Source: Echinarachnius parma
Lineage: Eukaryota > Echinodermata > Echinoidea > Clypeasteroida > Echinarachniidae
Direction: 5' to 3'
Assembly: GCA_037951105.1 (NCBI GenBank)
Contig: JBAMJV010005536.1
Span: forward strand, 58,018-122,017
DNA: 64,000 nt
This document shows positions 32,515 to 57,073 of the stretch, in pieces. Numbering within the stretch: the stretch's first letter is position 1; the number at the start of each line of letters is the position of its first letter. A program made the translations under genes and the position numbers. The notes below the pieces were generated by a model. The model saw nothing but the letters and a program-made list of their open reading frames with translations, ran no database searches and was not told the DNA's origin.

Positions 32515-32773
32515 ATGGTGATACCGGTAGTACGGGCGCGACGGGAACCGTCCCTTCTGCGATGGTTCTTCTACGGGACGGTGGTCCTGTTGCTCGCCGG
32601 AGCGCCCGGCGTCCATGTCGATGGCTACCCATCTGGGGCACCTTTACAGGCGTGTGAGGACATGATGCCATCTCATGGGACTGGTGTTTCTCCCCAAAAC
32701 GGAACCAATGGATTACGCATTTCGTTAACGACCCGCATTCAAACGACAAGTAATAAAGGAACCATGGTCTTCG
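32515..32773 (+). CDS. Reeler-mucin exon 1: signal peptide and start of Reeler domain
   Basis: The ATG has G at -3 and +4. The n-region RARREPSLLR is followed by hydrophobic WFFYGTVVLLLAGA, a secretory signal. Then GYPSGAPLQACEDMMPSHG matches the canonical Reeler opening (YPSGA..xC..MxPxHG). The donor is GTAAAT after TTC G, phase 1. The next exon is 10 kb away. Confidence 0.88.
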
Positions 32774-35700
32774 GTAAATATTCCATTAGATTATTACTGC
32801 AAATAAAACAAAAAATAGCGCAAAATCACTTTTGAAATTGTCTATAGAATATGTAGCAGGAGCATTATTAGGCCTACAATTTTTGAATGATTAATGCAAT
32901 TTGGATTCATAAAATTAATGGGTGTATGACACTCATCTCATTTGTTTATAAGCACCACTTAAAGTTTGAATAAACACCATATAATCAAATACTCTCCTGT
33001 TCATCAGCTCTCATCATCTATAGCTCCGTTAAAGCCCCCATCTCCCTCATCGCATCCTCCTCCCTAACTTCCCATAATCATTCTCATCATTTCTATACAT
33101 CAACTTTCCTCACCATCCCCTTATCCAGTCTACCCCTCTTGTACGTCATCAGCTTATTATAATTTCCAGTCGTTTCTCTATAGATCTGCAATAACCTCGG
33201 TAATAACCTCGGTAAAAAAAACGTTTTAATGGAAACTATTATTATTTCGTGCATTGTTTGATAACTGAGGGGGGTAGTAAAACTTCATCGATCTTCTTCT
33301 TCTTCTTCTTCTTCTTCTTCTTCTTCTTCTTCTTCTTCTTCTTCTTCTTCTTCTTCTTCTTCTTCTTCTTCTTCTTCTTCTTCTTCTTCTTCTTCTTCTT
33401 CTTCTTCTTCTTCTTCTTCTTCTTCTTCTTCTTCTTCTTCTTCTCCTCCTCCTCCTCCTCCTCCTCCTCCTCCTCCTCCTCCTCCTCCTCCTCCTCCTCC
33501 TCCTCCTCCTCCTCCTCCTCCTCCTCCTCCTCCTCCTCCTCCTCCTCTCCCTCTCCTCCTCCTCCTCCTCCTCCTCCTCCTCCTCCTCCTCCTCCTCCTC
33601 CTCCTCCTCCTCCTCCTCCTCCTCCTCCTCCTCCTCCTCTTCTTCTTATTTCTTTTTATTCTTCTTCTGATTAATCTGCCTCCTTCAATCCTGAAGATTC
33701 TTGCAGTTCTAACCCATTTTGTGTCTTGACGTGCATGTCTTTCCCGTGATCCCTATAGATGCAGAAAAGGGTTCACGGAAAACATCCCGCCCACGGGTAG
33801 GACGACCCCTCAGCTAGAAGATAAATAGAAGTCCCCATATGATATAAGACAAATCAAATCTCATGCACGAACAAAAAGAACGTGTCTACTATTTGATTGA
33901 AAAGAAGAATGTAAAAGCATGAGTGCACTATAAAGTAGCACCTGCTGGAATGCTCCCCAGGGAGTGGAGAGAGTGCACAATAAAGTGCGGAAGTGTACGC
34001 AATGGCCGGGTTATAACAAATAATATTAGATGCACGTCCCTCTGGGATAACAGAGCAAAAGAGCACTAAAGAGGCTAACCTAGATTAATAAGATACCAAA
34101 CAAAAATGGTGTTAATTAATCCAGTTAATTAGTTCATCACATGCACATCACAATCAAATCAAAGTGACAAATTAATCTGCATGTTGTTTGTGGTCGCTTG
34201 ACTGTTTTGTTGCGTAAAGCCTTTAAAGGTGATATAATCATGTCTTGGTACAGATGTTACACAAAACCCCAAACCACCTTTTTAAAATTCACACACAAGG
34301 TGTAAATATTCACGAGTAAATGACAAAGAACGGCCCCGAAATATTATGTTACGCCCCTAACATTCGCGTATGTCCTATTTTCGTAATTTCATCTGTAAAC
34401 TATCAATAATCTGTAAAAAATCATTTAAAAAACAAACATATATTATAATATGATTGAAACATTTCGTATCATACTTCTATTATTAATAAGGCGTATCATT
34501 CATAGTAGAATATAATCATTGGTTTGGTAATACTAATCGTGCTCATTATTAAGTTCTCAGGCGATAATTATGTACAGTTCACTAGAATATTATTTATTTA
34601 AAGCCAACAACTGACAAGCGATATGAAACGGGGGCTGAAGCATCGTTTACATATGGGATACCAAATGCATATCAAGCATGATTGTGTCATAGGCCATAGT
34701 GTTAAATTTTACTCCACTATTTTTTGTTAGGGAGGAGCTCGCGCCAGCTGCACCATGCATTTTTATGCTGGCTACGCCAGTGAATTAGCGGAGTGAGATC
34801 TCTTTTGAATTGAATTGAATTGAATTGATCTTTATTTCCATTTCATGATAATATTGTCATCATTATTTACATAGCGGAAAACGGGGTCCAAACAAGTATC
34901 AAAAAATGAATGACATGTATACATTGTGAATATGTGGGGGGTAATACAAAGTCACATTTGACTTAAGGCTTACCAACCCCATGAGAGTATAAACATACAT
35001 TCAGAAAGAAAAAGAACAGCGTAAGAAGAATTAATAATATAATATTTTTTTTGATGGAGCGTCGGTTTTCAGAATGAGATGCGGCTGCGTTTCAGTAAAC
35101 TCGTATATAGTCCAGAATCAACGTTTCAAAACGCGTTTCACGTATCTGAAAAGATTGGCCTGGGCTAGACAAATTAGATTCTGAGATTCTGAGCTAGACA
35201 GGACGAGTGTATACAGTAAAACCATATGCGTAGGAGGTGGGGGAAGGGGGGGGGGGGGGGGCTGTAGCCCACTGGAGTTTTGAAAACGTCCATATTCAGG
35301 CAAAATGCACCTCAAATTCTGGCAAACCATGTCATATTCGGGCAAATCCATGTCCTATTTGGGCAAATCCGTATGATATTTTGGGAAAATAAAGTCATAT
35401 TTGGGCAATGTAAAGTCATTTAATATACATGTACATTCAGGCAAACTCATGTCATATTAGTGCAATAAAACGTAATTTTCGGGCAAAACCGTCCAATATT
35501 CAGGCAAAATCATGTTATTACAGGACTAAACTATCAAAAACATATCATTTTCGGGCATCATAAAGGCGAAGACCTTTTTAATATTGTTAAAATATTGTTT
35601 TTTTGTTTGTCGGGTAAAAATGGGGAGGATAATTTGTTCGGGCAAAAGACCTCAGCCCTAGCTCCCCCTTGAGAAAAGTGTGATCCTACGCCCATAATTA

Positions 35701-38700
35701 GAACACACCCAGTCACGGTTCGGGATGAATGAATTCGTGAGAAATATGACGCGCATCATTCCGAGTCCGATCAATCAAAATTGTTCGATGAAAAAACAAA
35801 GAAAACAGAGCAGAATTCGTGTTATCACATACAGTATACAAAAAAGGGTATAATTTCATCATCGTTCACTTTTGTGAAGCCATCGATATGATACACTAGT
35901 GAACTGCATTAAACGCAGTATATATAAATTAAACATGTGTGTGTGTAAATACAAACTATAAACATTATATCGTTAATAACATATTTAGTATTATAAACAT
36001 ATATTATATAAAACAAATCGTAATCAGTGAATTCTTCTTCCTAGAGATATATGAAATGGAATCATGATTTTACACTGAACCTCAGGACAAAAATGTAAGA
36101 GTACCTTGATTTTTTTTGTGAAACCATCAATATGATAAAATATTGAACTGTATTAAACGCAGTATATATAAATTAAACATGTTTGTGTGTAAATACAAAC
36201 TATAAACATATACAACAAATCGTAATCAGTGAATTCTTCTTTTAAGAGATATATGAAATGGAATCATGACAACATTTTACGAATACCCTTATTTTAGAGA
36301 AACTTGAACATTGAGGAAGCAACGAAAATATGATATTGCCAACTGCAATATGTAATATTGGCCCATGCCGATTGTCCCAACATTTGTGTTTACTTTTGTT
36401 TTTGTGGTATCATGTATGTCAATACGCGTGTCATATAACTTTGTGTATGAGTTTACCCTTTAACATGTTATTTTGATCCTTCTATAGAAAATTCTCCATG
36501 AAATCCGTGCGTGATATGTTCAACAGCACACCGAGAAAAAATATTCGAGATCCGCGCCCCCTTTGTCAACATCAAATCTGACTGTTTGGCGCTTGTTCAA
36601 TGTTTCGGAAACATAATAAAATGCGGAAAATTACGGCCGCCACTTTTGTTCGATAATCCATACGTACGCATTTTGACAATTGACAATGAAATTCCATTAT
36701 TTTTCAACCAGGGTCTCTTTCTTTCGTTTCCTTTCATCACGCTCAAATTTACTCATTTGTCAAGGGCTCAAGGTCATGATAACATTTGAATGCATTCTTT
36801 ACTAGAACCTTGCGTAGATCGTAAATAAGGAAATATTCAACTCCTACACTATTTTTTGACATTCATATGAATTGATATCAACAGATGGACATAATAGATC
36901 ACCGAAATAAACCATTGTATATCAACCCGTCGTCAGTTATTGCACATTTCAACAAAGTTACTAGATCTCTTTAAGTCATAACTAACATAGTTTCGGTGCC
37001 AATGACAACATATACATATACATGTACAGTATATACGGTAATATAAATTAAATCATTATTTACTTAAAAGGATCTAGTAACTTTGTTGGCAAGTGCAAAA
37101 AGTGATGAGTGATTAATAAAATGTGTATTGGAGTTATCTGATAATTATGTCCACAGAGTACTGTGTGAACATTTCACGTTAATTTAATGTTTTTTGGCTG
37201 AGATATGAGCAAAAAAGCAAAGAGATATTCATTCATTAACTCATTGTACTTTACTTTGTACACGGATGAATGGATCCCGTAGACAATTTCATACAGACAC
37301 ACTTCAATCGTAAATATCTTTTGAACGAAATGGAAATTTGACAAACCGAAACCTGCCCCGTGCTTTTATTGTTAATATGAATATGATAAGGTATATATGA
37401 GAGAATCATTAGGGTTCCAAGTAAGTTTTGAGGATTTGGACAATGTTACCAAGTCCCTTTAAGTCACAACTAACATAGTTTCAGTGTAAATGACTTCATA
37501 GTATAAATTCAATCATTATTTATTTAATATGTTAAGTGGGCGATATATGATTGGCCTTCTACATCCGTGTGATCATATCGGTTGGTTTAATTAAATGCTA
37601 TTAAAATAGGTTCACATAATTATTGAAGAGCTTAGTTCCAAATAGTGCTAAATCCACTTTCCTTAAAAAATAAACTTAAATATAATTATCAGTATATATA
37701 GATAAGCTACGTAGCTATCTAGATAACCACATTTGAGGACAAATTTCTCAATCAAAATCAAAATATGGATCGTTCCATTTTTATATTCCTATAGGCATTT
37801 GTACGAAGTTGGACAAAGAAACCTGCCTTTCTCTAAAAATTGAAAAAGTGGATTTAGCGCCTTTTGGATTTGATCTCTAAGCAACCTCTTGAAAGGTTCT
37901 AAGAGTTTGATAAACATGATAAAGAGTAAGTAATGTAATCAATCATTCACACATTGGATATTAGTGATTTGTATAGGGACAAATATACTAGAAACACGAT
38001 CGTATTATGTTTATTGACTATAAAGTATATTGATAGGAAAATCATTTTGCTTATATATTATTTGGCGCGTTATTGACAAATATTTGAATATATTATACTA
38101 AATTTAATGCGATGATATTATTCAAAAATATATGTATTCCATACCTGTGTGATTATTTTCTAAAAATCATTATATGTTGGCATGATACTGTCGCGAGGAA
38201 CCATATATGAGTATATATTAGAATTGAGTGACTAACAAACATTAAACAAACCAGGCCTTATAATAATCAGCAACAAAACGAAATACGTCCGTACGGCAAT
38301 ACAGCATATACCTTCATACACTGACAGACAATATTGTGTTATTACCCACCCCCAGGCCTACCCCCATTAAAATATGAAAGTTAGACAGTAACAACTTATT
38401 AAACAGGATGCGAAATATAAATGATTCTATGGACGCTAAATATTTTGGTACACGTTCAATTAATGATAATTTTGGCATACCCGAAGATATAAAACCCTTA
38501 TAAAAATATTTTAAAATTATTTAAATCAATGAAAAACATACGTTTGCATGATTACAGGTTCTAAACATTGAATATTATGATGACGACTTTTTAGTATGAA
38601 CCTTTTAATAATACCTCACAAATACAGTATCAAGAGAATACCTAAAGTAACCATTACAATCCCATGCCTGAAACGATTTGAAACCTCCTGCATATACATT

Positions 38701-41700: not shown

Positions 41701-43195
41701 CGCGACCTCAATCAATCCAATTCCCTTGATACATACTATTTGAATGACATACGTACAGGACTTTTAGGGGCGATGAAATAATTATCATAATTATCATAAT
41801 ATTACTTATAAATTACAATTATTCTAAAAATAAGAATCTAACTCGGGCGAAGGATAATTGTTCTAGTGATGATCCTGCTTAATTTCTGACATTGCTCTTA
41901 GTATTATGCATTCGCTCTATTAGATGCACCATGCATCATGGAGTGTGTCTTTCCTCTGCATTCGCTGTATTAGATGCATCATGCATCATGGAGTGTGTCT
42001 TTCCTCTGCATTCGCTGTATTAGATGCATCATGCATCATGGAGTGTGTCTTTCCTCTGCATTCGCTCTATTAGATGCATCATGCATCATGGAGTGTGTCT
42101 TTCCTCTGCATTCGCTGTATTAGATGCATCATGCATCATGGAGTGTGTCTTTCCTCTGCATTCGCTCTATTAGATGCATCATGCATCATGGAGTGTGTCT
42201 TTCCTCTGGACCGATCTTCTCTTCTTCCAATATATATTTTTTTTCTTTCTTGATATTTGTATTTGTTCAAAACAAAATATGTACTATGCATATAAACAAA
42301 CAAAATAACAAGATTCAAATATATATCTTGTATACAAAAAAGTAATTACAATTAGTAGGTTTAGTGTTAACCTTAGGGAATAAAACATTTTCCAAGAAGA
42401 ACTCAAAAGGCCTAATCATAATGCCAATTTCTTAAAACGCAGGACTACTTCAAGGGGTTTCTGATCCAAGCTCGTCATCTTGGGGGCAGCGAGGCGATCG
42501 GGCAATCGTACAAGATGAAGACATAATACTAATCAGACAATAATGTATGCGTCATAATATTGCACTTATCATTGTATAGTGTATTTCTTCTATGCAGTGA
42601 CGATAAATAGTAACCAAACGACGCAGGATTACTTCAAGTGGTTTCTGATCCAAGCTCGTCATCTACATTATCTAGGGGGCAGCGATGCGATGGGGCAATC
42701 CTACAACATGCTAATAATTATATAATATTGGACAATTCTACACGAAATAATACAATAACATAATTATACATTTATCATTTGTTTTTTCTGTGTTTGCAGT
42801 GGCAATACATGGTAACCAAACAACGCAGGACTACTTCAAGGGGTTTCTGATCCAGGCTCGTCATCTAGGGGGCAGCGAGGCGATCGGACGCTTCTACAGG
42901 AACAGCGGGTCCATACTGTTTGGGCAGCAGGCCCTCGAATGCTTCGGGAACCGGAGGTCAGCTATCACGCATACGAGCAACGAGAACAAGCTAGCCGTCG
43001 GAATGAATTGGTATTCCGGAAGTAATAGCGACCTCTCGGATCTCGTCTTCGTGTGAGTAGCATTGGCAAATTCGTTTCAACCCTTAAATAATGATAATGG
43101 TGTAATAGTAATAATGTTTACTACTGCTATACAACTACAACTACAACTGCTTCTACTATAATACTACTACAACTACAACTACAACTACAACTACA

Positions 43196-43259
<64 letters not shown>

Positions 43260-43299
43260 TACAACAACAACAACAACTACTATTACTACTACAACAACA

Positions 43300-43383
<84 letters not shown>

Positions 43384-46300
43384 GTTGACTACTTCTACTG
43401 ATACTATATACTGCTACTCATAATGTAATACCACTAATAAGAACAACATCAACAACAATAATATGCGTCAGAAACATTTAAAACCATAAAGCGTGTCATA
43501 TAGAAGATACAGAGTAGAAGCAAATTTAAATTCATATCTATATATTTGTAGTCCTAATATATTTATCAATACCTGACTGAGACCGTAATACTCTTTTCTG
43601 GACTATTTATACCGACACACGTGCGTAATCACTATACGTGGATTATTGTTCCAAGCTAGGTCAGTTGTGGGAAGGTGTCGCATTTGACGGAAATGGTGTG
43701 GAATAACAAACAAAATAGATATATAACAGTATGATATTCCATAAAGCAGAATAGAATAACATGAAGCGTGTCTGTCAATCAACTTCACGTGGGGCATGTT
43801 CACATTATCGTTCTAAAAGTATTGTACGACTTATGGGACCTTTAGTCGTTCACATTATGATCTTAGATGCATGAAATACATCATATATGTACGACATTGA
43901 ACGAAATGTTGTTTGAACAATATAAACACCCTCCCCTTCAAAAGCACTATATATACGTTACCAATGCTACTATACACTGACATACACATTGAAGTGTACA
44001 TAATTATAAAGTATAATACGTTAATGTATTTGGTTAATTTACTTTATAGCTAGTCACAGGTTTAAAACATTTGTGTTCGGGTTTTTTAAATTCTCGTTAC
44101 TGTTCGAGGGATGAATGTGTTTATATCGCCAATTTTTTTTTTAGTCTCTTTTTATCGAGGATGACAGTGAGTTAAACGATCATATGAAAGTATAATACGT
44201 TAATGTATTTGGTTAATTTACTTTATAGCTAGTCACAGGATTAAAACATTTGTGTTCGGGTTTTTATTAATTCTCGTTACTGTTCGAGGGATGAATGTGT
44301 TTATATCGCCAAATTTGTTTTAGTCTCTTTTATCGAGGATGACAGTGAGTTAAACGATCATATGATAGTGATACAAGACGATATTGATAATCATGATAAT
44401 AGTGACGATATGATGACGAAATAATGACGTTAAAGTTAATGGTAATAATAGTGATGTTTGTTTATTTGTATAGGTCTAGGTTGTTTATTTGTCCAGTCTT
44501 TTGCGTTGGTTGATCAGCTAGTATGTTTGTCTATACTTTTCGGCTCCTCTGTGCCTCGCTGGTCATTATTTTATGTGTGATTGACAAGTAAAACCTTTTT
44601 AAAAACGTTGGTATCATTTTATGGAAAGACAGTTATCATGCATTTTTTGTGTGTGTGTTACAGTTGTCCTTGTGTTTGAGGCTAAGACAATAGACACTAC
44701 CCACATTAAAATGTCTAATTTGAGATCAACTTTCAACGATCTTTTTAAAAAGTCATGCTTCCTAACTACGTCCATTATTAACAAAATTTAGAGTTTACTT
44801 AGCATGCTTAGTTCTTTTAGTCAATATAATAAAATTTAATAACTTGTTAGAATCATCATGAATTATGCATTGATAGCCTGCCTATGAACCAAAATGTGAC
44901 AAACATGCAAATAATGTATCCAAATGGATTGGAATTCTTCATCGATTTTGTAATAAAAACATCCCGCCTACGAAATACAAAGACAATTAGATCATTCACC
45001 GGTATAATTACATGGGTGTGGAGGCGGTGCCCAACAAGTTATAATTTTGGATCATAATAAGGCGGCTTGTGCGCGGCTGCACATGTGTCATGTTAGCATT
45101 GACCCACATTTAGAACAACAAAAACGTTATAAATATCTTATTGCCACTCCTAAATTTGCAAACATAATCATTATACATAAATACACAATGTTGCATGTGT
45201 GGGGCTGTACAGGTTTAGAAGCTCCTCATAATTATGTCATATTTTGTTTCATGGGCATAATCTGTGTTCTACATAATAATAATAATAATAATGTATACAG
45301 ACAAAGGAAGGGCTGGAGTCTGGTCAATGGTAGTGATTTGCGTCATAATATTATAAAGAGCTTTATTTCAGAATGCGCTAAATCCATTAAAAAAAAAATC
45401 AACTTTGGAGAAATTCGCGTCTATTTATCCGACTTTGTACAATGGGCATGGGAGTACAAAATTGTTATTCTTCATAATGATTTTGTTTCTCATTGCGCAT
45501 TTTGAGTTAAGATTAGCCTATTAATGCACACATTTCGTTTACTCAATTATCTATGGAAAGTGGACTTGGCGTCTTTTGGAATTAATCTCTCCAATATAAT
45601 ATGTATACATATATAACACAAAAACAACGAAGACAAAAACAAAATTCACCTGCTGCTAACGTTATTCTGTTGCAGATCAATACTAGTACCAGCTTGTTTT
45701 GGAGGGATAAATGTGAAACTTGCTGAAGGTTAGGTTATTAATTATAGCGCCAAAAACAAAACTTTTTCTTCCTGCCTGCAATGACAGTTACCGCCCCTTT
45801 CCAAAAATAAATATTATGTTAACACTATACAAACAAAAGGATATATATTTTTATTGTGTTTAATTGTAATGAATTAATACAATTGTTCATTTTATCCTGT
45901 GACCTGTCTTTATTTTCTGAATGCACTTAAATCTGGTGTTTAGTGATATCTATCTCGATAACTACTCCAAAATTGTATTTCCAAAGAAATGAAACGTCCC
46001 CTCATTCTTATTCAGCGTTAATTTGTTATAATCGTTTCATTTTATTTAATTTCATTTTGCTACACTATTTTGATACAGTATAATCTCCGCTCATTTGGGT
46101 AACATTTAAAGGGCCGGTACACAATGTTACAGGGGTAGGTTTGTCCAAACATTTCCTAAAGAGTCCTTCACCATTTAATCTGGTACACCTGATAAAAGGG
46201 TTAAATATATACCGCGTGCACCAACAAAAAAGAGTCATAAGTATAATTGTATTGAGCTAGTTTTAGTTTCATTTACATAATAAAGTCCTAACATACCTGA

Positions 46301-49300
46301 TAATAATTGCTGCATGGTTGTGCGTAAGCCAGAACCATGACAAAGCTAATACAAGTTCAAAGTTGCAATATCGTTTCGATATCGTGCTATTGATTTGACT
46401 GGGGGGGAAAGGGTGATAGATCACGCCTATAAAACAATGATGAAAGCACACAATAAACTCTAGTATAGCGCACACAAGCACCGGGCGACAGTCTGCTAGC
46501 TGCTGCATGAGCAACACGTTTATTATTATATTTTTCATCGCGTTCATTTCGGTTGAGTAAACAAGCCTCGCCCATGCACCAATCACCATTATGTTGGTGC
46601 GCGGTATTTACATTACCAATTTGGACAGAATTATGATATAGAAACAATATTCATTTTGGTTGTTCTGAATGACCAGAAAGTTCTAAACCAGGAGGACTAT
46701 AACAAATAAAACGCTAATATGTCAGGCATCGGAGATCACGGCGTATATACATGTATATTGTTCCCCCTTTCATACGGTAGGATAATTGATATCGCACCCG
46801 AACATATAATCGTAAAAAATAGAACTATAAAAACTAATTCAAATTCAGTTAGGCATTGAGAAATGCAATTATTATCAATCATATACGACATACAATTCAT
46901 CATAAATAATATACATCGAACACAAAGAAACTTTTGAACTCTTCCCTTATAATAATTGTATAAGCTGTGTACATTGTTGTATGAAATTAATCAATTGCTT
47001 TTCCATGCAAGTATAATATTATACTTTTATTTGTAAATTACCTGCATATACAATGTATAGAACGATGTACAAACTCAAATTCCTATTATATAGACGAATT
47101 TTGATGGTGAACTTGTATACCTAAACTTATTTGTGCGATATCATCGATATTTTAACAGATTAGTATTCATAACATCAATGATAGCTTTTGATAAATGTTT
47201 GTTTTCTTGTATTCGTGCTGTAAAAATGACAAGATTGCCATTTTCATTATGTATGCAGAACAGTTACAGCAATTATGTAATTCATGCTTGCTTAAATCAT
47301 GGTAACTGAAGTCTGCAATGTTGGATTTTATCTCCAAGAGCTTTATCATAAAAACAAACCTTATTTTTAAATTTATATTTCACATTTCCTTCCAGTGCTA
47401 CCATCGTCCAATCAAAAGACGTATTCTGGGTGAATGTGACGTCCGACGTCCTCTTTCCGACATCAACTACTCCGCCACAGAGAACGCCATCTGAAACGAC
47501 GACAACATCACCGAGAATAACGCCGTCGATGACGACACCGCCGACGACGACGGTGGCAGAGATGACGAGCGAATCAACGACTCTAGCAGCAAAAACCCCA
47601 TCGCTGACTCCCGCGGAAATGTCAACAACCACAGTAGCAGCAGCAACTCCGGCCGCGACGACTAAGCCCGCCACGAATGCCCCCTCAACTACTGATTCAA
47701 CAACTACAGTAGCAGCAGCAGCAACTCCGGCCGCGACGACTAAGCCCGCCACGAAGGCCCCCTCAACTACTGATTCAACAACTACAGTAGCAGCAGCAAC
47801 TCCGGCCGCGACGACTAAGCCCGCCACGAATGCCCCCTCAACTACTGAGCATCTGAGCACCACCACAAAAGCAACAAAGCGACCTCGAACTACGAGTGCG
47901 TCTACCACTGTCAACTCCAATGCTACCAACGTTACCACAATAGATGTGACAACGCCAAGTTTTTCTACCAAAGATACCACAACTTTATCCACAACATTGT
48001 TAGCTGCAACTACAGCTGACATAAAAACAACAGAAAGCCAGACGACCGAGCGAGGAAAATTTACCACCTTAAATAGTACAAGCACGGCAACAAATGCAAG
48101 CACTACCACCGTTGCTACAACTGAAGCTAGTACGAATTTCACAAGCGATACACCTACTGAAAGCGGTGCAAATGCTACCAGCCCGTCGGCGACTGAAAAC
48201 AATACGAATTTCACAAGTTTGATAACAACTGCAACCAGTACGAAATCCACAGTCGATGCAACAACTAAAAGCAGTACCATAATTACAAGTACTGAAACAG
48301 CGAGCAATGCGACAGTTAATTCAACCGCCACAACTACTGTGGCATCAACTAACGCTACAACTGCAGCAACACCATCTGTCTCTCGGGAGACTACAACATA
48401 CGCTGCAAATGTTTCTACTACGGAAAACGGAACCGATAGTAATACAACAACTCCTTCATCTTCTGTTACAACAGACTTTTCGTTGTATACCACAACCATT
48501 ATGAATGGGACAACCGAGTGGCCAGCCGACAACTTTACCGCCGTTACTAATGTGACCGATGTGTTGCACAGCACCACACGCTCAGGCGATAACTTGACTA
48601 CAACTCAAGTGGCTGCCACTCGAAATGCAACGTTGTCTCCCGAGTTCACGACATATTCTTCCACGACGTATACTAGAAACGTTTCGTCGACTCAATCAAC
48701 TACTAGCAATGTAACAACTGAAAATCCTACTAATGTAACTAGCAATAATTCAACTATTGTAACAACCATATATCCTGCGAATATAACAGAGAATTCAACT
48801 ATTCTACCAACCGAAAATACAATGAATACGACTGAAAGTCCTACAAATACAACAACTGGTAATTCTGCTAATTTCACAACGACTGAGATCACGACTTTGG
48901 TCGCGGCACCCACAACCGTAGGAACAACTCCGAGCACAGTCCTGACAACACTGTCGACGACGCAGATGGTAACGCGGGACAACGCAACAACATTACAGGA
49001 GAACGTAACAACATCGCAGATGACAACACAGGATAACGCAACAACGACGCAAGCCACAACGAGTTCCTCTCCGAATTCCACGTCGGTCGTTGCAACGGAG
49101 AGACCAAGAACGACGGCGAGCAGTTCAAACAATTTTACCACGACGGATGTCGTGACCACTGATGATGAGATGCTAACGAATTTCACGGTGATTTATGTAA
49201 CGGACAATTTTACGACCGGACAAACTCCGGATGATACGAGTACAGTACCTTCGACATCGGTCGTTAATGTTACAGATATTGTTACGGAAATGACAACCAG

Positions 49301-52300
49301 TATGACAAGTCCTCCGTCAACTTTGAGGCACACATCTAATCCGTCGAATGTCTCTACAACAGTAGAATCACCCACTACTATAGAAAGTACTCTTCCTTCA
49401 AACGGAACGGAATCGCCGAGCACGAACGCATCCACGGTCTTGACTTCCACGACGCGTTTTACAACAACGTTGCCGCCAACCACCGCTGATATCACAACTA
49501 AAATGGAGACAAAACCAACTCCTACAACAACTGAATTACCTTCAACCACGACCGCCGCAACACCGCGAGAGCAAACGGTTGCGACAACTCGCGCAACGAC
49601 TACATTGTCAACAACGGTTGCCGCAACTACGCGAGAGGCAACAGTTGCAACTACCCGCGCCACGACTAGCGTACCAACGGTCGCAACAACAACGCCTGCC
49701 GCAACTACGCGAGAGGCAACAGTTACAACTACCCGCGCCACGACTAGCGTACCAACAGTCGCAACAACAACGCGAAAGACACCGATGGCGACAACTGATC
49801 AACGGCAAACCACCAGCCAAACTGTTGCTACCACTTTAGCGGCAAATGCGACCACCAAGGCTACGACCATTGTCTCGACCACCGTGGAGTCTACCACGCA
49901 ATCGACGATGATGACCACACGATCAGAGACTCGTGGTACGACGAGGAGAGTGACCCCCGCACAACCTCAAGTGGCAGGTATAATACCTTTTTTTCTTTTG
50001 AACATGTCATGTTTTGACATTTAATTGGTATTAAAAATAGTTCAATATAGGTAAATGGAAGCTACTGACATTCGGCAATAAAAACACATGGTCAAAAGGG
50101 AGAAAAACACACACAGGGAGAACAATATAATTATATGAATACACAACAAAATAAAGTAAGCAAAAATTGTTTTCTACATTACTCACGTTTTAAAATTCAT
50201 TACTACTTTTTAATGTGTGTTATGTATGTATTAATTTATATTTCTCCTCATGTATCTATTTGTGTAATTGTATAAACTTATTCCTTCATTATTTGTTTCA
50301 CAGAAGCAGACAATGAGGTGATAGTTCGTTTCAGGATAACTAATCTGAATTTCACGGACGACCTCGACCAACCGGGCTCTCCCGCGTTCATAGATCTCGC
50401 TAGAGAAGTCGAAAGTATTGTAAGTACATGAACCGTTAACCCTTATTATTAAATGTACGTGGTAATTAAAGGGGTATCCCACTGAACGGCGAACGTTTGC
50501 GAACGTTTGCGAATATAGCAAATTTGGGATTTCGCCAGGATTCGTTAAAGGTTGCAAAAGGTTCGTTAACGGTTGCAAGAAAATTCGCAAACGGTTTTAA
50601 TTGTCGCAAACAGTTTTTCTTGTCGCAAAGAAATTTTGGACATGTTCAAAATTTCTTTGCGAATTTATTTTTTCGCAAACAGTTGCAAACGTTCGCAAAC
50701 GGTTTTAAGACGGTGTCGCTAACGTTCGCCAATGCTAGCGATTACATGACCATATGGTTCCTAAATGCAATCGACCCATTGAGCGGCGAATGCTTACGAA
50801 CGTTTGCGAATTTTGGATTCGCCAAATTTTCTGACAAATGTTGGCAAAAATCAGGGTGGCAGAGGCAAACCCTGATTTTCGCTAACATTCGTCAGAAAAG
50901 TTGGCGAATCCAAAATTTGCAAAGTTCGCTAACGTTCGCAAACGTTCGCCTCTCAGTGGGATAGCCCCTTAAGGGTTCTATTAACTATCTTGACATGCGT
51001 TCAAACTGACAAATAGTTGATAACATGACTGTGTTGTTCTGTAATTTGATTGATATGTCCACTGAGTGATGTGTGAAAATTCAATGGTAAATTAATGCTA
51101 CTTGTCCAAGTAATGAGCTAGAATATTGATATTTAACAATACAATGCATTTACTTTGTAGTTTGTACACAGTTGAAAGCCTCCCAAGGAGACATGTAAAT
51201 CTGAATATTTCAGTCATATATTTGTTTTATTATAGAGATTTAGAACTTCGGAAAGCCAAAACCTGTTCCATGCTTATATTGATAATGCAAGTACAATGAG
51301 ACATGGCAGAACAGTTTTGTGGATTTGGGCAATGTGAGGATAGAAATATGGAAAACTAAAACAAGAATGATGGTAAATAATAATAAGAGTGAATTATTAT
51401 GTTGTGCATTATCCATCAACAGTCATGTAGTATGGTGCCCAAAATGCTCAGTTGTAAAAATCCGGGTAAAATCGTCAACATTAAGATACATATTACCTAC
51501 TACAAGAGGTAATACAGTCAGAATTATTACATTGTAAAGCGCCGTGAATTCATACCTTTTGTTGTGTTAACAAAAAAAGCATAGGACAGGTTTGGTTGTA
51601 TCAAATTTCCATTTCGTTCAAAAGCTATTTACGGATATGAAATTATCTACGGGACCTTTTCAGCCGTATACAAAGTAAGTGCAATGAGTAAATGAATATC
51701 ACTTTGCATTTACGCTAGTTTCTCGGTCAAATAATATCCAATTAACTTGAAATTTCCACACATTACTTTCTGGCCATATATCAGATCACACCAATATACT
51801 TTTTATTAACCACGCATCACTTTTTGCACTTGTCAACAAAGTTAATAGATCCCTTTAACACACGTACCTGCTTTGACGTTATTTATTTGTAATGCTTTGT
51901 CGCCTATATATTTTAATGGTATTTGTGATGTATGCTTTTTTAATGTCTGCATACTATTTTGAAACTACGGATTGTTGTTGCGATTCTTTTTTTGCAATAA
52001 AACCGAACTTAAATTGAATTGAATTGAAATGAATTATAATTATAATTATCACAGATGCGTGCCGTCTATGCGGACGATGACAACCCTCCTAGCAATGTCA
52101 CCGTTGTCCGATTCTCGTAAGTCTTTCTGAGTAGAATTAATGTTTACATGCTAGTTCATATTGATGTGATTATCATTTAGTTGTTCTGAATGTTGTTGAA
52201 ATAGTATATACAACTCATATTTAAAGTAATTGTAAAGGTCCTTCGTATACTGACTACTGTTCATAATACAGGGTTGCCCGTCCCCCCCCAAAAAAAAAAC

Positions 52301-55300
52301 GGAACGGGGTACTTGCCATAATAACTAAACATGATGACTATAGGTTCCCGGGATATGGCATCTTTGGACAAGTAGTTTTTTTGTTTTAGGACGTCTTGAG
52401 TGAGACCATGTCGGGTTCCCATTTGTGTCAATTTTTACCAAGTCAGTGCCTGATAAATCGCACTTCCTGCCCGTCATAGCAACGAACAACTATGCCCATC
52501 CATTCGGCACACAGCTGAATGCACACTAACAATGGCGCGCGTATTGCTCGTTGCTCGTTGCTCGTTGTTCGAGTATCGGTAACTCGCGTTAACATGGTTA
52601 CGGTAGCTCGTGTTACATTTTGACTTTGTCCGTGGGTCATGTTTCATAAAAAATAAAACAAATTATAGGGTCTCAGAACATGGAAATGTTAATTCTAAAA
52701 ATCTTAAATGATGCTATGGTATTCAGTCATCTTATTTGGAAGAAAATGCTAACAAAAAGATTGTAAACAATTAAGAATAAACACAAACCAAAATTACTTA
52801 TATGTAGTCAAATATTTACAGTTTCATGCATGGTTTTAGTTTCTCCTTTAATAAGGAACCCGAGGCGGGCCTTGTGAATTAAAATTAGTGATCTTTATAG
52901 ACAAATGATAGACGGATGGTCCCCGCAGCGGGTTTGACAGTAATGTATTTCAATGTATTTCCATTTCAGACGGGGTAGTGTAATACCCGAAGTCAAGTTG
53001 ACGTTTCCGTCGAGTCTGAACGACACTGAGAAGAATTCAGTGGTCCAAATCCTCTACAACGATGCCGAAGATGGTCAGATCGGCGACTATTCGGTCGACG
53101 GCGTCTCGGCAGTGGACGAAAATGGTAAGTTGTTGAATATCTGTTTGTGTTCGCAGCGTGTCGATACTGTTCATGTTTTACACAGTAATAGTAACCTATA
53201 TTGTATAACCATTCAACGAAAAATAATATGCTTTCATAATAATATGAACCATGAATATATACATACATCATTTATGGAAAGCGAATTATATCATAGTATG
53301 TTATTAAGTTATGGTATCAGGACTCATTTTCACAATAACTATATCGCTGATCAAATCGTCTCTTTTTCCCAAATGCAATGATCTAGCAAAAAATAATTAA
53401 GTGCATACTTTATCCCTTTCTTTTGTGATTGTCAGGTATTTATCAGCCTGTGGACGACTGCGTTTTGAACCCGTGTCCCACTGGCCGAAACTGTCTTGCC
53501 GACAGCTGTTCCTACTTGTGTGGTAGCAACCAGGACTACTGTCGCAATGGCGGCACGTGTGATAACATCGCTAGTGATGATGGCAGCCGGACCTTTGCAA
53601 ACTGCACGTAAGAATGCGATATAATTCAAATAGTTATTTATGTTATATGGCTCAGTCAAAAAATGCTTTAATACACTTTTTCTAAAAATTTAAAAAGAGG
53701 TAATAGTTATTGATGATCTATCTATTTAATCATTATTTTAACCAAACATCACATGCACATTTTTGTATTCAAAATGGCTGAAACCAATGATTTTTTAGAG
53801 AGTGCCCTCTAGAGTTTTAACGGATCTTTTTTTTAATGAAGACAGGCTTTTTGCTTCGTTGTTCGTATTTGTATACACTGTTCGAGCATTGTGGAGTTAT
53901 AACTATTAGTTTGTATAGTTTGCAATGTTATGGTGCAGGTTTTGGTTACTAAAATTCAGTATGACCAAAACTGTATTACCCTTTTTATTGTTGATAATTG
54001 AACCGTTTTTTACCATTTACCATTTGAAATTTCATTGATACACATTTGTGCACACCCTAGTTTTATATTTCACCTCTCGCCAAAATGTAATGCTCACTTC
54101 ATTAGAATTAACACATTTATTTTTTTATAAATGTATTTTATATATAATATTTGTTTATATTTTCTTTGAAAACAGATGTGCAGAAAATTACGAAGGATCC
54201 CGCTGTACAGTAAAAGTAGAAGTACCCGATGGAGAAAGTAACGGAAACAGTAAGTTTAAACTTTAAAAGCACCAGCATAGTTACTATTGTTAAAGCGATA
54301 TAGATGATGATGGTGCATGACGACGACGATGATGATGATGATGATGATGATGATGGTGATAAGGCAAAGCACAATTAAACAAATACCCGATTTTAGCCTA
54401 CATGTGATTTAGTTTTTTCAAAAATTCAAAAATAAGATGTTTTATGGTGTCGATATCATTGTTTGATGGTTGGTGGGTGGGTTGGTGGTGGGCTTGTTGG
54501 TGGGCTGGCGCTAGCTGGCTGGCGCTGGCTGGCTGGCTGGCTGGTTGGTTGGCTGGCTGATGTATTCATCTTTGAATTAATTTTGATATTGACATTGACA
54601 TATTTACGATTTGTCTCCTTTTCATGTATTAATTCAGACTTGTTTGTCAATTTGTTCTAGTTAACCTGCTGATCATAATCCTGGCCTCCGTGTGCGGAGT
54701 GCTGGTCGTCGTGGTCTTCACCCTTATCGTGGTGGTCGTGTTATGGTGCAAGCGCTCGAGACGTAAAAAGGACAAAAGGTAAGGCATATCAAACGTGTTT
54801 AAATTCATTTCATTTATTCATTCATTTCAGATAAAATACAACGGTAAAAACAATTAGTGTAAACATTGACAGGTATTTGCATTTGAAGCAAAATGCTTTT
54901 TAATGGCAAACCCATGTTGACAAAATGACAATATTAAAATCGAGACAAGAAAATATTGATATATATACTACTTTATGTTCATTTATTTCATTTGTTTCTA
55001 CTGATTAGTATCAATATCTTCTAAATATGATACGTGTTATATATATGCAATCTGCAATAATTTTCGGGATTGAAGTAGGGACATTAAAAGAAAGATTATT
55101 TACATGTACAGTATATGGGTTCAACAATGACAAAATTATTATACATCGTACACATTATATGAAATTTTGCACTTGGATATCATGTATTTATTTCAAGTAA
55201 CTGATTAAAAACAATGAAAGTGCCCTTAGATGATTATTAGAAGAAATAGTGCAATGTTACAAATAAATTCAAGTACGTGATGCATTACATTTTGGGGGGA

Positions 55301-56423
55301 ATAGATGGATATGTACTATTTTGGGGGTGGTTCCGCTTACAGAGGAATGCATGCACAAACAAGTATCAAGTCTAAAATTATGTTTTCAACCATAGCAATG
55401 TGTTCTTGTTCTTAAATTTCATTTATAATTAGGTTTATGGTAAAATGAACTGCAAAATCACCAGCGAACATTAATTTCTTGTTAGTTTTACCTGTACTTT
55501 AAATTTCCGTTAGATCACGGTTGTGCAGTTGAGATCATATTCTAAAGTAAATACATCAAAGTCCAAAGACATTTTCTACATTGACTTCTACTTCGAATAT
55601 CCCTGGGATTATTTTCATGTTTAAAAATTGTATTCCCAAAGCATAACATTATTTTATAAAGAGGTTCACGTCTACCCTTACTATTGATTCATTCCATAGA
55701 ACGATTGATTCTGATCCCGAGCGTATCGAGGAGATGCTAAAGTACCGGAAGGAGAGGAACGCGGCCAGAGCCCGGCGCGAGGAGAGTGCGTCATCCAAGG
55801 ATGGGAGTATGGCGTCCTCAGCAAGTGGAATTATCGTGCCGATCATGTTTGCCAGGCCGACGCCTCTGGAAGCCAAGCTCCCACGGGAATTTGTCGTGAT
55901 CGAAAATGTCGAGACGAGCAGCGGGAGCGAGTTCTATAACACGGACTCGGACTCGGACTCGCTGAACTTCCATCCGCGACTAAGCCAGGGTGGGGCGAGG
56001 TTCCCGCAGTTCGACCAGATGCATGGCAGCATCCCAGATGTCGTCGGGCCTGCTGCCGACTATGAAATGGACATCATGAGCCGAGGTAAAGGCACTGCCG
56101 CAAGCGGTGGCGGCAATGGGGACGACGGTGATTCGCGCTCGATCACCAGCGGCAGCACCCGGATGCGACGCTCAGTCAGCTTCAGTGACATGCAGCAGGT
56201 GATCTCGGACGACAACCGCATCGGCTTCGAGAACTTTAGCTTCGGCAATGACGCCGGGCCTGGGAACAGTAACTTCCAGGTACGGTGGGACTTCAAGGTC
56301 GGCCGCCAAGATTCGGCCGATGACAGCGAGTTAGGCGCAGCCACTCCCGACCCCGGCGGTGGCAGGAAGAAGGTCGAAGATGAGGGAGGTGGCGATACTA
56401 GCGGGGGCGAATCAGCCGCATGA
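32515..56423 (+). CDS. Reeler-mucin-SEA-EGF transmembrane protein, 10 exons, 1,504 residues
   Basis: Exons: 32515-32773, 42800-43052, 47396-49977, 50304-50419, 52055-52116, 52970-53124, 53436-53607, 54176-54249, 54661-54778, 55700-56423. All borders are GT/AG and the 4,515 nt stay in one frame. Order: signal peptide (1 to about 36), Reeler domain (about 37-185), Thr/Ser/Pro mucin region (about 190-1030), SEA domain (about 1035-1142, with GSVIPEV at 1093-1099), Cys cluster plus EGF (about 1143-1210), transmembrane helix (about 1227-1254) with a KRSRRKK stop-transfer, and a 250-residue tail. Likely a heavily O-glycosylated surface mucin; SEA domains commonly self-cleave at G-S and hold subunits together. 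Reeler domains are extracellular and occur in reelin, spondin, ferric-chelate reductases and insect immune proteins. I know no named orthologue with this whole order. The exact start and possible alternative exons are untested. Confidence 0.9.
33292..33640. repeat. (TTC)n(TCC)n tract, about 350 bp
   Basis: About 50 pure TTC units (33292-33443) change abruptly to TCC units (to 33638) with one CTCCCTCTCC interruption near 33546. It is an uninterrupted polypyrimidine strand on the coding strand of intron 1, so triplex/H-DNA is expected. Translating it gives only Phe/Ser/Pro homopolymers. Confidence 0.95.
35222..35695. mobile_element. Element with ATGCGTAGGA ends and internal 30-bp repeats
   Basis: The left ATGCGTAGGAGGTGGGG and right GATCCTACGCCCAT are inverted. 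Inside, a motif like CATGTCATATTCGGGCAAAT recurs about nine times with drift between 35285 and 35520. A G run follows the left end, as in other elements here. Class unknown. Confidence 0.6.
35876..36270. repeat. Tandem duplication, about 244-bp period
   Basis: The words AAACGCAGTATATATAAATT, GTGTGTAAATACAAACTATA and AATCGTAATCAGTGAATTCT occur in the same order at about 35911-36045 and 36155-36255. Copy 2 is shorter by a few internal deletions. No gene. Confidence 0.85.
37064..37462. mobile_element. MITE family G, copy 2 (undisrupted)
   Basis: TTAA at both borders. Ends AAGGATCTAGTAACTTTG and GTTACCAAGTCCCTT. The interior has GTGCAAAAAGTGATGAGTGA and GTTCCAAGTAAGTTTTGAGG, both shared with the copy at 60792. 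An end fragment in the opposite orientation lies at about 36930-36973, and a short flank (TAACTAACATAGTTTC) is repeated on both sides (36980 and 37465). This is the empty-site reference for the nested copy at 60792. Confidence 0.8.
37627..37882. mobile_element. Imperfect foldback element J, copy 1
   Basis: AGTGCTAAATCCACTTTCC at the left pairs with GTGGATTTAGCGCC at the right, with outer AGCTTAG..CTAAGC. Related to 45357-45593. No coding sequence. Confidence 0.6.
38560..39910. repeat. Degenerate AT-rich tandem array, about 8 units of 135-200 bp
   Basis: Each unit carries in order AATGGTT(T/C)GAAACAATTTCAAA, GAATGAATATTT.AAAG, TTTAATGGCTAT, (G/C)TCTTTAATATGTAATAC, ACCAAACAACGTTGAGTTGTTC and CACCTACATACATTAAAT. 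Anchors of the first word are at about 38811, 38945, 39109, 39308, 39453, 39637 and 39810; a weaker unit is near 38670. Identity between units looks low, so the array is old. Confidence 0.75.
39940..40012. other. Isolated GC-rich palindromic patch
   Basis: CGACGGGTGTGTCGGG and CCCGATGGGTCG lie about 45 bp apart in otherwise AT-rich DNA, with GGTTCAACGTGTGCCC between. It sits exactly at the right edge of the degenerate array. It might be an old tRNA-like or transposon end; I cannot assign it. Confidence 0.35.
40066..40390. repeat. Tandem duplication, 162-bp period
   Basis: GGTTCAAATTCTG, TTAAGAGTTT, CACAAGCACATGTGTG and AGATTGTTATA recur in order, starting at 40066 and 40227. The copies have diverged but are collinear. 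Confidence 0.75.
41358..41663. mobile_element. Foldback MITE with GTTTCACAAAG ends
   Basis: The left GTTTCACAAAGATTCTAAGT and right TTAGAACTGTTTTGTGAAAC are inverted. Inner GTTGGACCTAACTATTATGG pairs with TAATGGTTAGGTCCAAC. No TTAA border was found. No gene. Confidence 0.75.
41909..42208. repeat. 50-bp minisatellite, six units
   Basis: Six head-to-tail 50-bp units start at 41909, 41959, 42009, 42059, 42109 and 42159. The unit runs CATTCGCT(C/G)TATTAGATG, then CATCATGCATCATGGAGTGT and GTCTTTCCTCTG. Only two sites vary: C or G at position 9 (order C,G,G,C,G,C), and one A-to-C-type change in unit 1 (GCACC for GCATC). Near identity means recent expansion. Confidence 0.97.
42436..42512 (+). pseudogene. 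Decayed copy 1 of Reeler exon 2 (5' half)
   Basis: AGGACTACTTCAAGGGGTTT, CTGATCCAAGCTCGTCATCT and GGGGGCAGCGAGGCGATCGG match 42826-42886 almost base for base. The match breaks at GGGCAATCGTACAAGATG. It lacks the exon's first codons and any donor, so it cannot encode a Reeler fold. Confidence 0.88.
42598..42712 (+). pseudogene. Decayed copy 2 of Reeler exon 2 (5' half, acceptor kept)
   Basis: Preceded by a plausible acceptor TCTATGCAG, then an open frame VTINSNQTTQDYFKWFLIQA and RHLHYLGGSDAMGQ. A 9-base insertion (His-Tyr-Leu-like) and Gly-to-Trp lie in the core. The homology stops at the same point as copy 1, then runs to a stop without a donor. Probably non-functional. Confidence 0.85.
42800..43052 (+). 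CDS. Reeler-mucin exon 2: core of Reeler domain
   Basis: Acceptor TGTTTGCAG, donor GTGAGT. It encodes VAIHGNQTTQDYFKGFLIQA, RHLGGSEAIGRF, ALECFGNRRSAITHTSNENK and WYSGSNSDLSDLVFV. FKGFLIQAR, the Cys before the SAITH segment and the W-Y/DLVFV stretch are standard Reeler features. Two decayed copies of its first half lie directly upstream (42436 and 42598). Confidence 0.92.
43145..43383. repeat. (CTA)n/(CAA)n microsatellite
   Basis: Long pure CTA runs at about 43196-43258 and 43299-43383 are separated by CAACAA-rich patches and preceded by alternating CAACTA. Located 90 bp after the donor of Reeler exon 2. Confidence 0.95.
44008..44365. repeat. Tandem duplication, 179-bp period, high identity
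   Basis: 44008-44186 is repeated at 44187-44365: AAAGTATAATACGTTAATGT, GTTCGAGGGATGAATGTGTT and GATGACAGTGAGTTAAACGA occur in both. Differences are a handful of substitutions and short indels in T runs, so it is recent. Confidence 0.95.
45357..45593. mobile_element. Foldback element J, copy 2
   Basis: AATGCGCTAAATCCATTAA at the left pairs with AAAGTGGACTTGGCGTCTTT at the right, followed by AATTAATCTCT. Resembles 37627-37882. Diverged. Confidence 0.5.
47396..49977 (+). CDS. Reeler-mucin exon 3: Reeler end plus entire mucin domain
   Basis: A single 2,582-bp exon. It opens with VATIVQSKDVFWVNVTSDVL, which completes the Reeler fold (FWVNVTSDVL is typical). About 840 residues follow, dominated by Thr, Ser, Pro and Ala with almost no Cys or aromatics: a classic PTS domain for O-glycans. 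N-glycosylation sequons (NVT, NAT, NFT, NTT) are frequent in the middle, so mixed N/O glycosylation is likely. Tandem subrepeats occur at both ends. Donor GCAG|GTATAA. Confidence 0.93.
47620..47850 (+). repeat. Mucin tandem repeat 1, three units of about 75-78 bp
   Basis: Three near-identical in-frame copies encoding TTVAAATPAATTKPAT(N/K)APSTT, with the nucleotide word CCGGCCGCGACGACTAAGCC identical in each. Copy 2 has an extra GCA (one more Ala). High identity points to recent slippage or unequal exchange, so copy number is likely polymorphic. Confidence 0.92.
49558..49790 (+). repeat. Mucin tandem repeat 2, three to four units
   Basis: In-frame units of about 60-70 bp encode EATVATTRATTSVPTVATTT-type segments, with shared words CTACGCGAGAGGCAACAGTT and CGCGCCACGACTAGCGTACC. 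Thr/Ala/Val-rich with regularly spaced Arg, so more basic than repeat 1. Confidence 0.88.
49978..50303. other. Reeler-mucin intron 3
   Basis: 326 bp between the mucin exon and the first SEA exon. AT-rich; no repeat or site recognised beyond the splice borders. Confidence 0.8.
50304..50419 (+). CDS. Reeler-mucin exon 4: first part of SEA domain
   Basis: Encodes EADNEVIVRFRITNLNFTDD, then SPAFIDLAREVESI. The pattern of a beta strand (VIVRFRITNLNFTDDL) followed by a helix ending LAREVESI is the standard SEA start. Acceptor TTTCACAG, donor GTAAGT, ending in phase 0. Confidence 0.9.
50466..50972. mobile_element. MITE family K (TTAA target, GAACGTTTGCG repeats)
   Basis: TTAA at 50466-50469 and 50969-50972. 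Inverted ends AAGGGGTATCCCACTGAACG and CTCAGTGGGATAGCCCCTT. The subterminal word GAACGTTTGCGAA and its complement recur about ten times, and TTTGGATTCGCCAA / TTGGCGAATCCAAA form an inner inverted pair. No gene. Confidence 0.9.
51030..51858. repeat. Two opposed partial copies of MITE family G
   Basis: The plus-oriented part (about 51030-51340) has ATGTCCACTGAGTGATGTGT and AAAGCCAAAACCTGTTCCAT. The minus-oriented part (about 51560-51858) ends CACTTTTTGCACTTGTCAAC, then AGATCCCTTTAAC. Together they form a long inverted repeat inside intron 4. The left copy lacks its start. Confidence 0.7.
52055..52116 (+). CDS. Reeler-mucin exon 5: SEA middle
   Basis: 62 bp encoding MRAVYADDDNPPSNVTVVRF plus a split Ser. 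It continues the SEA fold up to the strand before the cleavage motif. Contains one N-glycosylation sequon (NVT). Acceptor ATTATCACAG, donor GTAAGT, phase 2. Confidence 0.88.
52117..52969. other. Reeler-mucin intron 5
   Basis: 853 bp. A repeated TTGCTCG word (52551-52567) and a GTTAACATGGTTACGGTAGC region are present. Otherwise AT-rich; no transposon or RNA gene recognised. Confidence 0.7.
52970..53124 (+). CDS. Reeler-mucin exon 6: SEA cleavage motif and end
   Basis: Encodes SRGSVIPEVKLTFPSSLNDT, then VVQILYNDAEDGQIGDYSVD. The F-S-R-G-S-V-I segment corresponds to the FRxGSVVV autoproteolysis site of mucin SEA domains. The catalytic Ser (1094) is kept, but Pro replaces the usual residue two positions after the first Val. 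Cleavage is therefore possible, not certain. Confidence 0.9.
53125..53435. other. Reeler-mucin intron 6
   Basis: 311 bp between SEA exon 6 and EGF exon 7. AT-rich, nothing else recognised. Confidence 0.8.
53436..53607 (+). CDS. Reeler-mucin exon 7: Cys cluster and first part of EGF module
   Basis: Encodes VDDCVLNPCPTGRNCLADSC and SYLCGSNQDYCRNGGTC. The first five cysteines form a compact Cys-rich segment; the later CRNGGTC is the EGF signature. The EGF module is completed by the next exon. Acceptor GATTGTCAG, donor GTAAGA, phase 2. Confidence 0.9.
53660..53985. mobile_element. MITE family C, 5'-truncated copy
   Basis: Matches the right half of family C: AACATCACATGCAC, GAGAGTGCCCTCTAGAGTTT, TTCGAGCATTGTGGAGTTAT, GGTTTTGGTTACTAAAATTC. 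The left terminus is missing and the right terminus is damaged (CTGTATTACCCTTTTT). Lies in intron 7. Confidence 0.8.
54176..54249 (+). CDS. Reeler-mucin exon 8: end of EGF module and stalk
   Basis: 74 bp encoding TCAENYEGSRCTVKVEVPDG. With NCT of exon 7 this gives C-x-C-x8-C, the EGF C-terminal pattern (CxCxxxYxGxxC). A short acidic stalk, EVPDGESNGN, follows. Acceptor TTGAAAACAG, donor GTAAGT. Confidence 0.9.
54250..54660. other. Reeler-mucin intron 8 with two simple repeats
   Basis: A (GAT)n run at about 54318-54360 and a GGTT/GGCT tetranucleotide tract at about 54465-54560. The strand-wise G richness of the second is unusual next to the acceptor of the transmembrane exon. No other feature. 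Confidence 0.85.
54661..54778 (+). CDS. Reeler-mucin exon 9: transmembrane helix
   Basis: Encodes about 28 hydrophobic residues (LLIIILASVCGVLVVVVF, TLIVVVVLWC) followed by KRSRRKKDKR. A strong single-pass type I anchor with a basic cytoplasmic stop-transfer. Acceptor TTGTTCTAG, donor GTAAGG, phase 2. Confidence 0.93.
54779..55699. other. Reeler-mucin intron 9
   Basis: 921 bp, AT-rich. I see no transposon ends, exon or RNA gene in it. Confidence 0.7.
55700..56423 (+). CDS. Reeler-mucin exon 10: cytoplasmic tail and stop
   Basis: 241 codons plus TGA at 56421-56423. The tail is Ser/Asp/Gly-rich. It starts with a charged helix (ERIEEMLKYRKERNAARARR). It also has an acidic Ser run (DSDSDS) suited to CK2, a basophilic kinase/14-3-3-like RMRRSVSFSDM, and tyrosines in EFYNTD and DYEMDIM. 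No known domain was recognised. GC content is clearly above the flanking introns, as expected for coding sequence. Confidence 0.9.
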
Positions 56424-57067: not shown

Positions 57068-57073
57068 AATAAA
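57068..57073 (+). terminator. Candidate polyadenylation signal AATAAA
   Basis: First canonical AATAAA after the mucin stop codon, about 645 bp downstream. Two more follow at 57140 and 57156. Any of them could end the mRNA. Position only, no cleavage evidence. Confidence 0.45.

Follow-up and report, generated by a model that had tools for sequence, protein, structure and literature searches.

Whether a single gene joins a Reeler head to a transmembrane mucin, and what such a molecule might do at the cell surface, is the question raised by the window, the stretch of 64,000 nucleotides of Echinarachnius parma that was analyzed in this study. The first-pass annotation had proposed ten exons spliced in one frame into 1,504 residues. 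Rebuilding of the splices bore this out, giving GT-AG boundaries at 9/9 introns, 0 internal stops, and entry phases of 0-1-2-1-0-2-1-2-1-2 for exons 1-10, with the reading frame of 1,504 aa ending at a TGA stop codon at 56421-56423. The exons of the Reeler-mucin gene are as follows.

Exon 1, 32515..32773, + strand: start codon, signal peptide (by eye), and first part of the Reeler domain (YPSGAPLQAC...)
Exon 2, 42800..43052, + strand: Reeler core; phase 1 in, phase 2 out; 43.6 bits alone
Exon 3, 47396..49977, + strand: last Reeler strands to approximately 47432; 840-residue T/S-rich mucin region at approximately 47457-49977
Exon 4, 50304..50419, + strand: first part of SEA
Exon 5, 52055..52116, + strand: middle of SEA
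Exon 6, 52970..53124, + strand: remainder of SEA; joined to the end of exon 5, forms RFSR-GSVIP, the G/S boundary lying at 52976/52977
Exon 7, 53436..53607, + strand: Cys-rich segment and first part of EGF
Exon 8, 54176..54249, + strand: end of EGF and juxtamembrane stalk
Exon 9, 54661..54778, + strand: transmembrane helix and basic stop-transfer segment
Exon 10, 55700..56423, + strand: cytoplasmic tail to the stop codon; no Pfam family

The order in the product is signal peptide, Reeler, T/S-rich region of 840 aa, SEA, EGF, transmembrane helix (TM), and tail of 251 aa. This is the order that the annotation had given, and it was recovered by Pfam for Reeler, SEA, and EGF, by hydropathy for the TM, and by eye for the signal peptide. 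The annotation had also called for an HMM scan of the spliced protein, in which PF02014 (Reeler) and PF01390 (SEA) were above cut-off, as was EGF (PF00008) when scanned alone. At the level of sequence, the predicted gene model is thus confirmed as real, with slight doubt on exon 1.

Domains and mucin region of the predicted protein

The signal peptide, called by eye, stayed below 1.6 in the 19-residue hydropathy scan, and a leader resembling that of exon 1 precedes YPTGAP in two other Reeler genes, on contigs C547 and C3944. Only one peak exceeded 1.6, at approximately residues 1221-1258, corresponding to the TM and followed by a basic segment. The SEA domain covers residues 1039-1133 and profile positions 5-105 of 106, with 46.7 bits and an E-value of 3.9e-12. 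EGF spans residues 1171-1209 and profile positions 1-32 of 32; it scored 17.0 bits in the long query, under the cut-off of 21.5, and 23.5 bits (E 6.7e-5) when scanned alone with the Cys-rich piece.

By eye, the SEA sequence RFSR-GSVIP is similar to known SEA cleavage motifs, and when set against GSVVV it has Pro instead of Val at the fifth place, which makes self-cleavage less sure. Among the solved chains nearest to the SEA domain, 5/6 were mucin entries (MUC16 and MUC1), with weak matches (E 0.2-0.78) that aligned SEA residues 8-47 only.

No Pfam family matched the 251-residue cytoplasmic tail, and within this genome a 242-residue piece of it had a strong match only on the window contig (C5530) and on contig C2423. 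A weak match to the tail query on C12099 (25%, E 0.11) has two stops inside and overlaps the TM and the tail start. A match on C6248 (32%) was set aside, being an EGF-TM frame with neither SEA nor Reeler by Pfam in the scanned piece.

The annotation had described the region between Reeler and SEA as rich in Pro, Thr, and Ser. A T/S-rich stretch of 840 residues is indeed present, with 34.8% T, 11.4% S (46% T+S), and no Cys; the claim fails for proline, which is low (6.5%). Short tandem arrays lie within the mucin exon at 47622-47848 and 49542-49773. In the mucin region, 41 of the 50 Asn residues lie in N-X-S/T sequons, compared with a mean of 21.4 (sd 3.4, maximum 33) in 2,000 residue shuffles of the same region. 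As the sequons, which span residues 346-988 (approximately 47919-49853), are outside both tandem arrays, array amplification does not explain their excess. An excess of approximately twofold is unusual for a mucin rod, and the simplest reading is that the rod would be densely N-glycosylated beside its O-glycosylation.

Reeler head, second gene copy, and exon 1

The Reeler domain covers residues 47-183 and the complete profile (1-131 of 131), with 82.1 bits and an E-value of 6.6e-23 (cut-off 21). Exons 1+2 scored 60.7 bits, exons 2+3 scored 66.6 bits, and only exons 1+2+3 reached 82.1 bits, which corresponds, over the 43.6 bits of exon 2, to a gain of 17.1 bits from exon 1 and of 23.0 bits from the start of exon 3. 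Exon 3 begins with ATIVQSKDVFWVNVTSDVL, which is the end of the Reeler fold, and continues stop-free into the mucin region. The mucin exon encodes the final Reeler strands, worth 23 bits, so that a single exon contributes to both head and mucin. The annotation had named separate transcripts for exons 1-2 and 3-10 as the outcome that would contradict it; this arrangement is unlikely because the Reeler end sits at the start of exon 3, and it was rejected on the Reeler score of that exon.

The genome search gave 34 Reeler matches, and the Reeler genes on C3944, C547, C10285, C4135, C587, and C12609 were inspected. In 6/6 of these, as in the window, an identically placed Val codon marks the phase 1 start of the core Reeler exon, which ends in phase 2. 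A third exon, carrying FWV, was also seen in the C547 gene, and the first exons of the C547 and C3944 genes place the leader directly before YPTGAP, with a phase 1 donor, approximately 7-8 kb upstream of the core exon. As exon 3 holds the Reeler end and the core exon has the phases of the six inspected Reeler genes, it seems that the mucin region expanded within the final Reeler exon. If this is true, the gene would be an example of a mucin rod growing within the last exon of an existing domain.

Exons 2-10 are also present, in unchanged order, on contig C2423, without internal stop or frameshift, with AG before 9/9 exons and GT after 8/8 exons that have a donor. Its identity to the window is approximately 97% over most of 44776-59443 and 89-96% in aligned parts farther upstream. 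C2423 is probably the other haplotype, since other contig pairs (for example C1441/C2536, among the SEA matches) show the same doubling; a recent duplicate is the alternative.

The mucin exons (2.58 kb) of C5530 and C2423 show 11 mismatches over 2,585 columns, in addition to two indels of 3 bases. The synonymous and nonsynonymous differences between the two copies numbered 5 and 5 in the Reeler part (pN/pS 0.29), 1 and 10 in the mucin region (3.7), 0 and 0 in SEA, 1 and 1 in Cys/EGF (0.27), 0 and 1 in the stalk/TM, and 7 and 4 in the tail (0.17), or 14 and 21 over all codons (0.51). The mucin value of 3.7, from 1 versus 10 differences, shows no constraint in that region. Intron mismatches in the aligned parts were 3.2-3.5% for introns 1 and 2 and 0-2.1% for introns 3-7 and 9; intron 8 yielded no columns under the alignment filter, although its region does align between the contigs. 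Because introns 5 and 6 beside SEA are nearly identical too, the unchanged SEA says little.

As a separate observation, introns 5, 6, 7, and 9, within 52117-55699, diverged by 0-0.94% between the contigs, compared with 2.1-3.5% for introns 1, 2, and 4 and the 3' flank, and 1.4% for intron 3. The low intron divergence at 52117-55699 is possibly due to recent sharing or gene conversion.

Of the nine junctions in the model, the first has the least support, as exon 1 was not found on C2423 and its region is single copy in the assembly. Exon 1 was not found in C2423:44001-124000, which includes 41.8 kb upstream of the point where the two contigs cease to be collinear, and tblastn there with three Reeler N-termini (window, C547, and C3944) gave nothing below E 0.5. 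The same three queries in C5530:43001-122017 found exon 1 as the only convincing Reeler N-terminus (E 9e-31, 8e-5, and 4e-5). Collinearity starts abruptly at 34414, opposite C2423:85849, inside intron 1 between exons 1 and 2, and a long microsatellite at 33292-33639 lies upstream of this point. On C2423, repeated TTTACCCA-type units stand just upstream of the break. The break at 34414 would be accounted for by a structural difference between haplotypes or by misassembly of one of the two contigs; it puts exon 1 at some risk but not the Reeler-mucin-SEA order.

The model might, in this part, be an artefact, with exon 1 taken from another Reeler gene by misassembly at the microsatellite and the true first exon missing. 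C2423 is collinear only downstream of the microsatellite and a second copy of exon 1 was not found, both of which point in that direction; however, the phase, the intron position, and the 17-bit Reeler gain all fit exon 1, C5530:43001-122017 contains no N run, and the three Reeler N-termini pick exon 1 alone in it. We therefore consider an artefact very improbable, and even then the order Reeler core, mucin, SEA, EGF, and TM holds on two contigs.

Related genes, known proteins, and possible function

The genome (1.2 Gb, 14,790 contigs) was searched with profiles exon by exon, and the best candidates were scored. The SEA matches numbered 30 at E up to 1, of which 18 were above cut-off, and among the best candidates scored only C5530 and C2423 appeared in both the Reeler and the SEA lists.

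Two genes share parts with the window. The gene at C547:27501-37500 has a Reeler domain with the same intron places and phases, and differs in that numerous EGF-like exons come in series after the Reeler, many of them with a T-rich linker at the end. Two of these EGF-like exons scored 29.6 and 21.2 bits by Pfam (cut-off 21.5), and SEA, a mucin exon, and a TM were not found among the ORFs of the 10 kb read. The gene at C9555:40001-54000 (minus strand) shares with the window protein the first half of a SEA domain, though weak (22.9 bits, under the cut-off), then a segment rich in Cys (38% over 52 residues, E 0.012) and a TM-like segment; it differs in having PAN and two HYR where the window has Reeler and mucin. 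The order read on the minus strand, unspliced, was PAN, HYR, HYR, weak SEA, Cys-rich, and TM-like, and Pfam gave no EGF in the Cys-rich piece. The Cys and TM exons of this gene may be duplicated.

The annotation had set the two classes apart, with no Reeler head in known transmembrane mucins and no SEA or long PTS in Reeler proteins. The order itself is supported, although the contrast was somewhat overdrawn, as the parts recur separately in the C547 and C9555 genes. On these sequence comparisons, the Reeler-mucin gene seems to bring shuffled parts together in a new way more than to represent a novel type of molecule.

The SEA-type transmembrane mucins (MUC1, MUC13, and MUC3/12/17) have in common with the predicted protein a T/S-rich region carried by a single large exon, SEA, one TM, a cytoplasmic tail, and, in the MUC13 and MUC17 types, EGF; by eye, the signal peptide and a GSV-type motif in SEA are similar too. 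The window protein differs in its folded N-terminal Reeler head, in its 251-residue tail outside any Pfam family, and in a mucin region that is T-rich instead of P-rich, with many N-glycan sequons. Based on the tested features (T/S-rich region, SEA, EGF, and single TM), the predicted protein belongs with the transmembrane mucins, to which it adds a single element, the Reeler head. F-spondin, reelin, and FRRS1 also carry an N-terminal Reeler, with other domains downstream; they are not known to have a SEA or a mucin region.

The secreted Reeler defence proteins (Noduler, BmReeler1, PcReeler, and LvReeler) are similar in that a signal peptide (called by eye in the window protein) is followed by one Reeler. 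According to passages of PMC12113285, Noduler and the LvReelers are short, with the Reeler making up approximately the whole protein, whereas the window Reeler tips a membrane mucin. It occupies 137 of 1,504 residues, and a TM is present, unlike the Noduler type, in which the Reeler is nearly the whole of a secreted protein. The binding and inhibition of Vibrio by shrimp Reeler proteins, as well as microbial binding by crayfish and insect Reeler relatives, are also given in these passages (PMC12113285). The HEG / MUC13 pair shares the PTS region, EGF, and TM with the window protein; in the relevant part of PMC1552070, HEG differs in having no SEA, and neither HEG nor MUC13 is described with a Reeler.

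In a search of literature text, with animal protein databases outside its range, the Reeler and SEA domains co-occurred only in a dystroglycan review. Passages from papers that name both the Reeler domain and mucin describe no Reeler-headed mucin, and a sponge paper, in its relevant passage, names a Reeler gene only (PMC6208332). Among the matches listed for the broader membrane-mucin literature, the term Reeler was absent, and the matches listed included no study of membrane mucins in echinoderms. The Reeler-mucin order as an undescribed one is thus uncontradicted by the literature text searched, and an unnamed predicted protein of the same order may well exist in public annotations.

Concerning function, the features are consistent with a single-pass transmembrane mucin whose Reeler head, set on a glycan rod, would be cut at SEA and shed on binding, with the tail reporting the event; we regard this reading as plausible, although a little short of probable. 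The rod of approximately 840 residues, rich in Thr/Ser and N-glycan sequons, would hold the N-terminal Reeler away from the cell. SEA may be cut during folding between G and S in GSVIP, or just before GSVIP, at RFSR, by a furin-like protease, the sequence RFSR-GSVIP making either route possible. Such a cut would leave two chains, non-covalently joined. On contact of the Reeler head or the rod with a bound microbe, the matrix, or another cell, the load would pull the chains apart and the rod would be shed with its cargo, while the membrane stub with its Ser-rich tail might report the shedding. The scheme would amount to the releasable decoy of MUC1 plus a protein binding head; the surface rod or pathogen barrier proposed in the annotation is likewise inferred.

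The literature supplies precedents for the separate steps. In MUC1, SEA is cleaved at the Gly-Ser bond of GSVVV, after which its two parts remain bound until disrupted, as stated in a passage of PMC9564314; GSVVV likewise appears as a SEA cleavage motif in part of PMC6954182, where the SEA of human GPR126 is described as cut by furin in the same loop and the cleaved SEA domains of other proteins as holding together until force is applied. Passages of PMC6491460 report that the MUC1 ectodomain can carry off bound bacteria as a releasable decoy, and that microbes contact MUC1 mostly via its glycans. A capture rod that can be shed is suggested because MUC1 shows SEA cleavage and decoy release and Reeler proteins bind microbes.

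Because proteins of the matrix and of neurons contain Reeler domains as well, the binding of microbes is just one of the options. The molecule could be an adhesion or matrix-sensing mucin, in which the head binds matrix or glycosaminoglycan and the SEA-EGF-TM base passes load to the tail, with microbes uninvolved. A PDB search with the single Reeler sequence gave 0 matches up to E 1, and a three-sequence Reeler profile matched only the F-spondin (Spondin-1) Reeler among solved structures (3/3 matches, E 6.2e-4 to 1.2e-3). These matches fit a matrix role, as do the hold-until-force behavior of cleaved SEA domains (in the passage of PMC6954182 cited above) and the snail shell protein SMP1, which is said in part of PMC11401363 to carry a matrix-binding Reeler domain. 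However, the F-spondin chains were the sole solved matches, so that matrix binding is not singled out by them, and a long glycan rod suits a barrier at least equally well; we find the matrix role possible but somewhat doubtful. It would be improbable, in our estimation, that two products arise from the gene, with retention of intron 3 yielding, besides the full membrane form, a secreted Reeler-mucin that ends at a stop at 50022-50024. The ORF at 47352-50024 is open across the exon 3 donor, and this donor (CAG/GTATAA) is, by eye, the farthest of the nine from the GTRAGT consensus, but any retained intron is expected to be read through to a stop close by.

Building on the capture rod cut at SEA, heads such as Reeler and HYR might be interchangeable on a common SEA/Cys-rich/TM base, and the window gene would then encode a self-releasing pattern-recognition mucin, in which a gripping head, a trapping glycan rod, a breakable joint, and a signalling tail are combined. 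We consider this wider proposal unlikely, though not far-fetched. If true, a mucin with its own protein head, the head being related to microbe-binding proteins of arthropods, would link mucus barriers with pattern-recognition receptors.

Other features of the window and genome

COX1 on contig C14600 reads PRMNNMSFWLIPPS under table 9 (AAA Asn, ATA Ile), whereas these places become Lys and Met under table 5. The mitochondrial code is of the echinoderm type, although table 14 (flatworm) agrees with table 9 at those COX1 places, so that the code by itself is compatible with either phylum; the COX1 protein would fit an echinoid.

An interspersed repeat of approximately 430 bases at 30856-31283 was found on at least 38 other contigs (best 40 of 9,543 candidates scored), with 87-93% identity in the best match per contig. 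Similar open peptides, SPDLV.TVH.LPCNI.G.YMALL...FAVGKIMECSPRD.KCYFVKK, occur on the minus strand at 58392-58715 and at L025:8775-9017 (minus, in the C9555 region), and this common peptide is perhaps a mobile-element remnant or a repeated gene. On the minus strand at 20636-22260, a proline-rich unit that recurs gives long open frames that overlap, probably a tandem repeat and not a gene; a match of the Reeler first-exon motif at C5530:79980 (minus), in this repeat, was plainly chance. Within the Reeler-mucin gene, intron 1 holds six copies of a 50-base unit at 41907-42208, and intron 2 holds two copies of a 179-base unit at 44008-44369.
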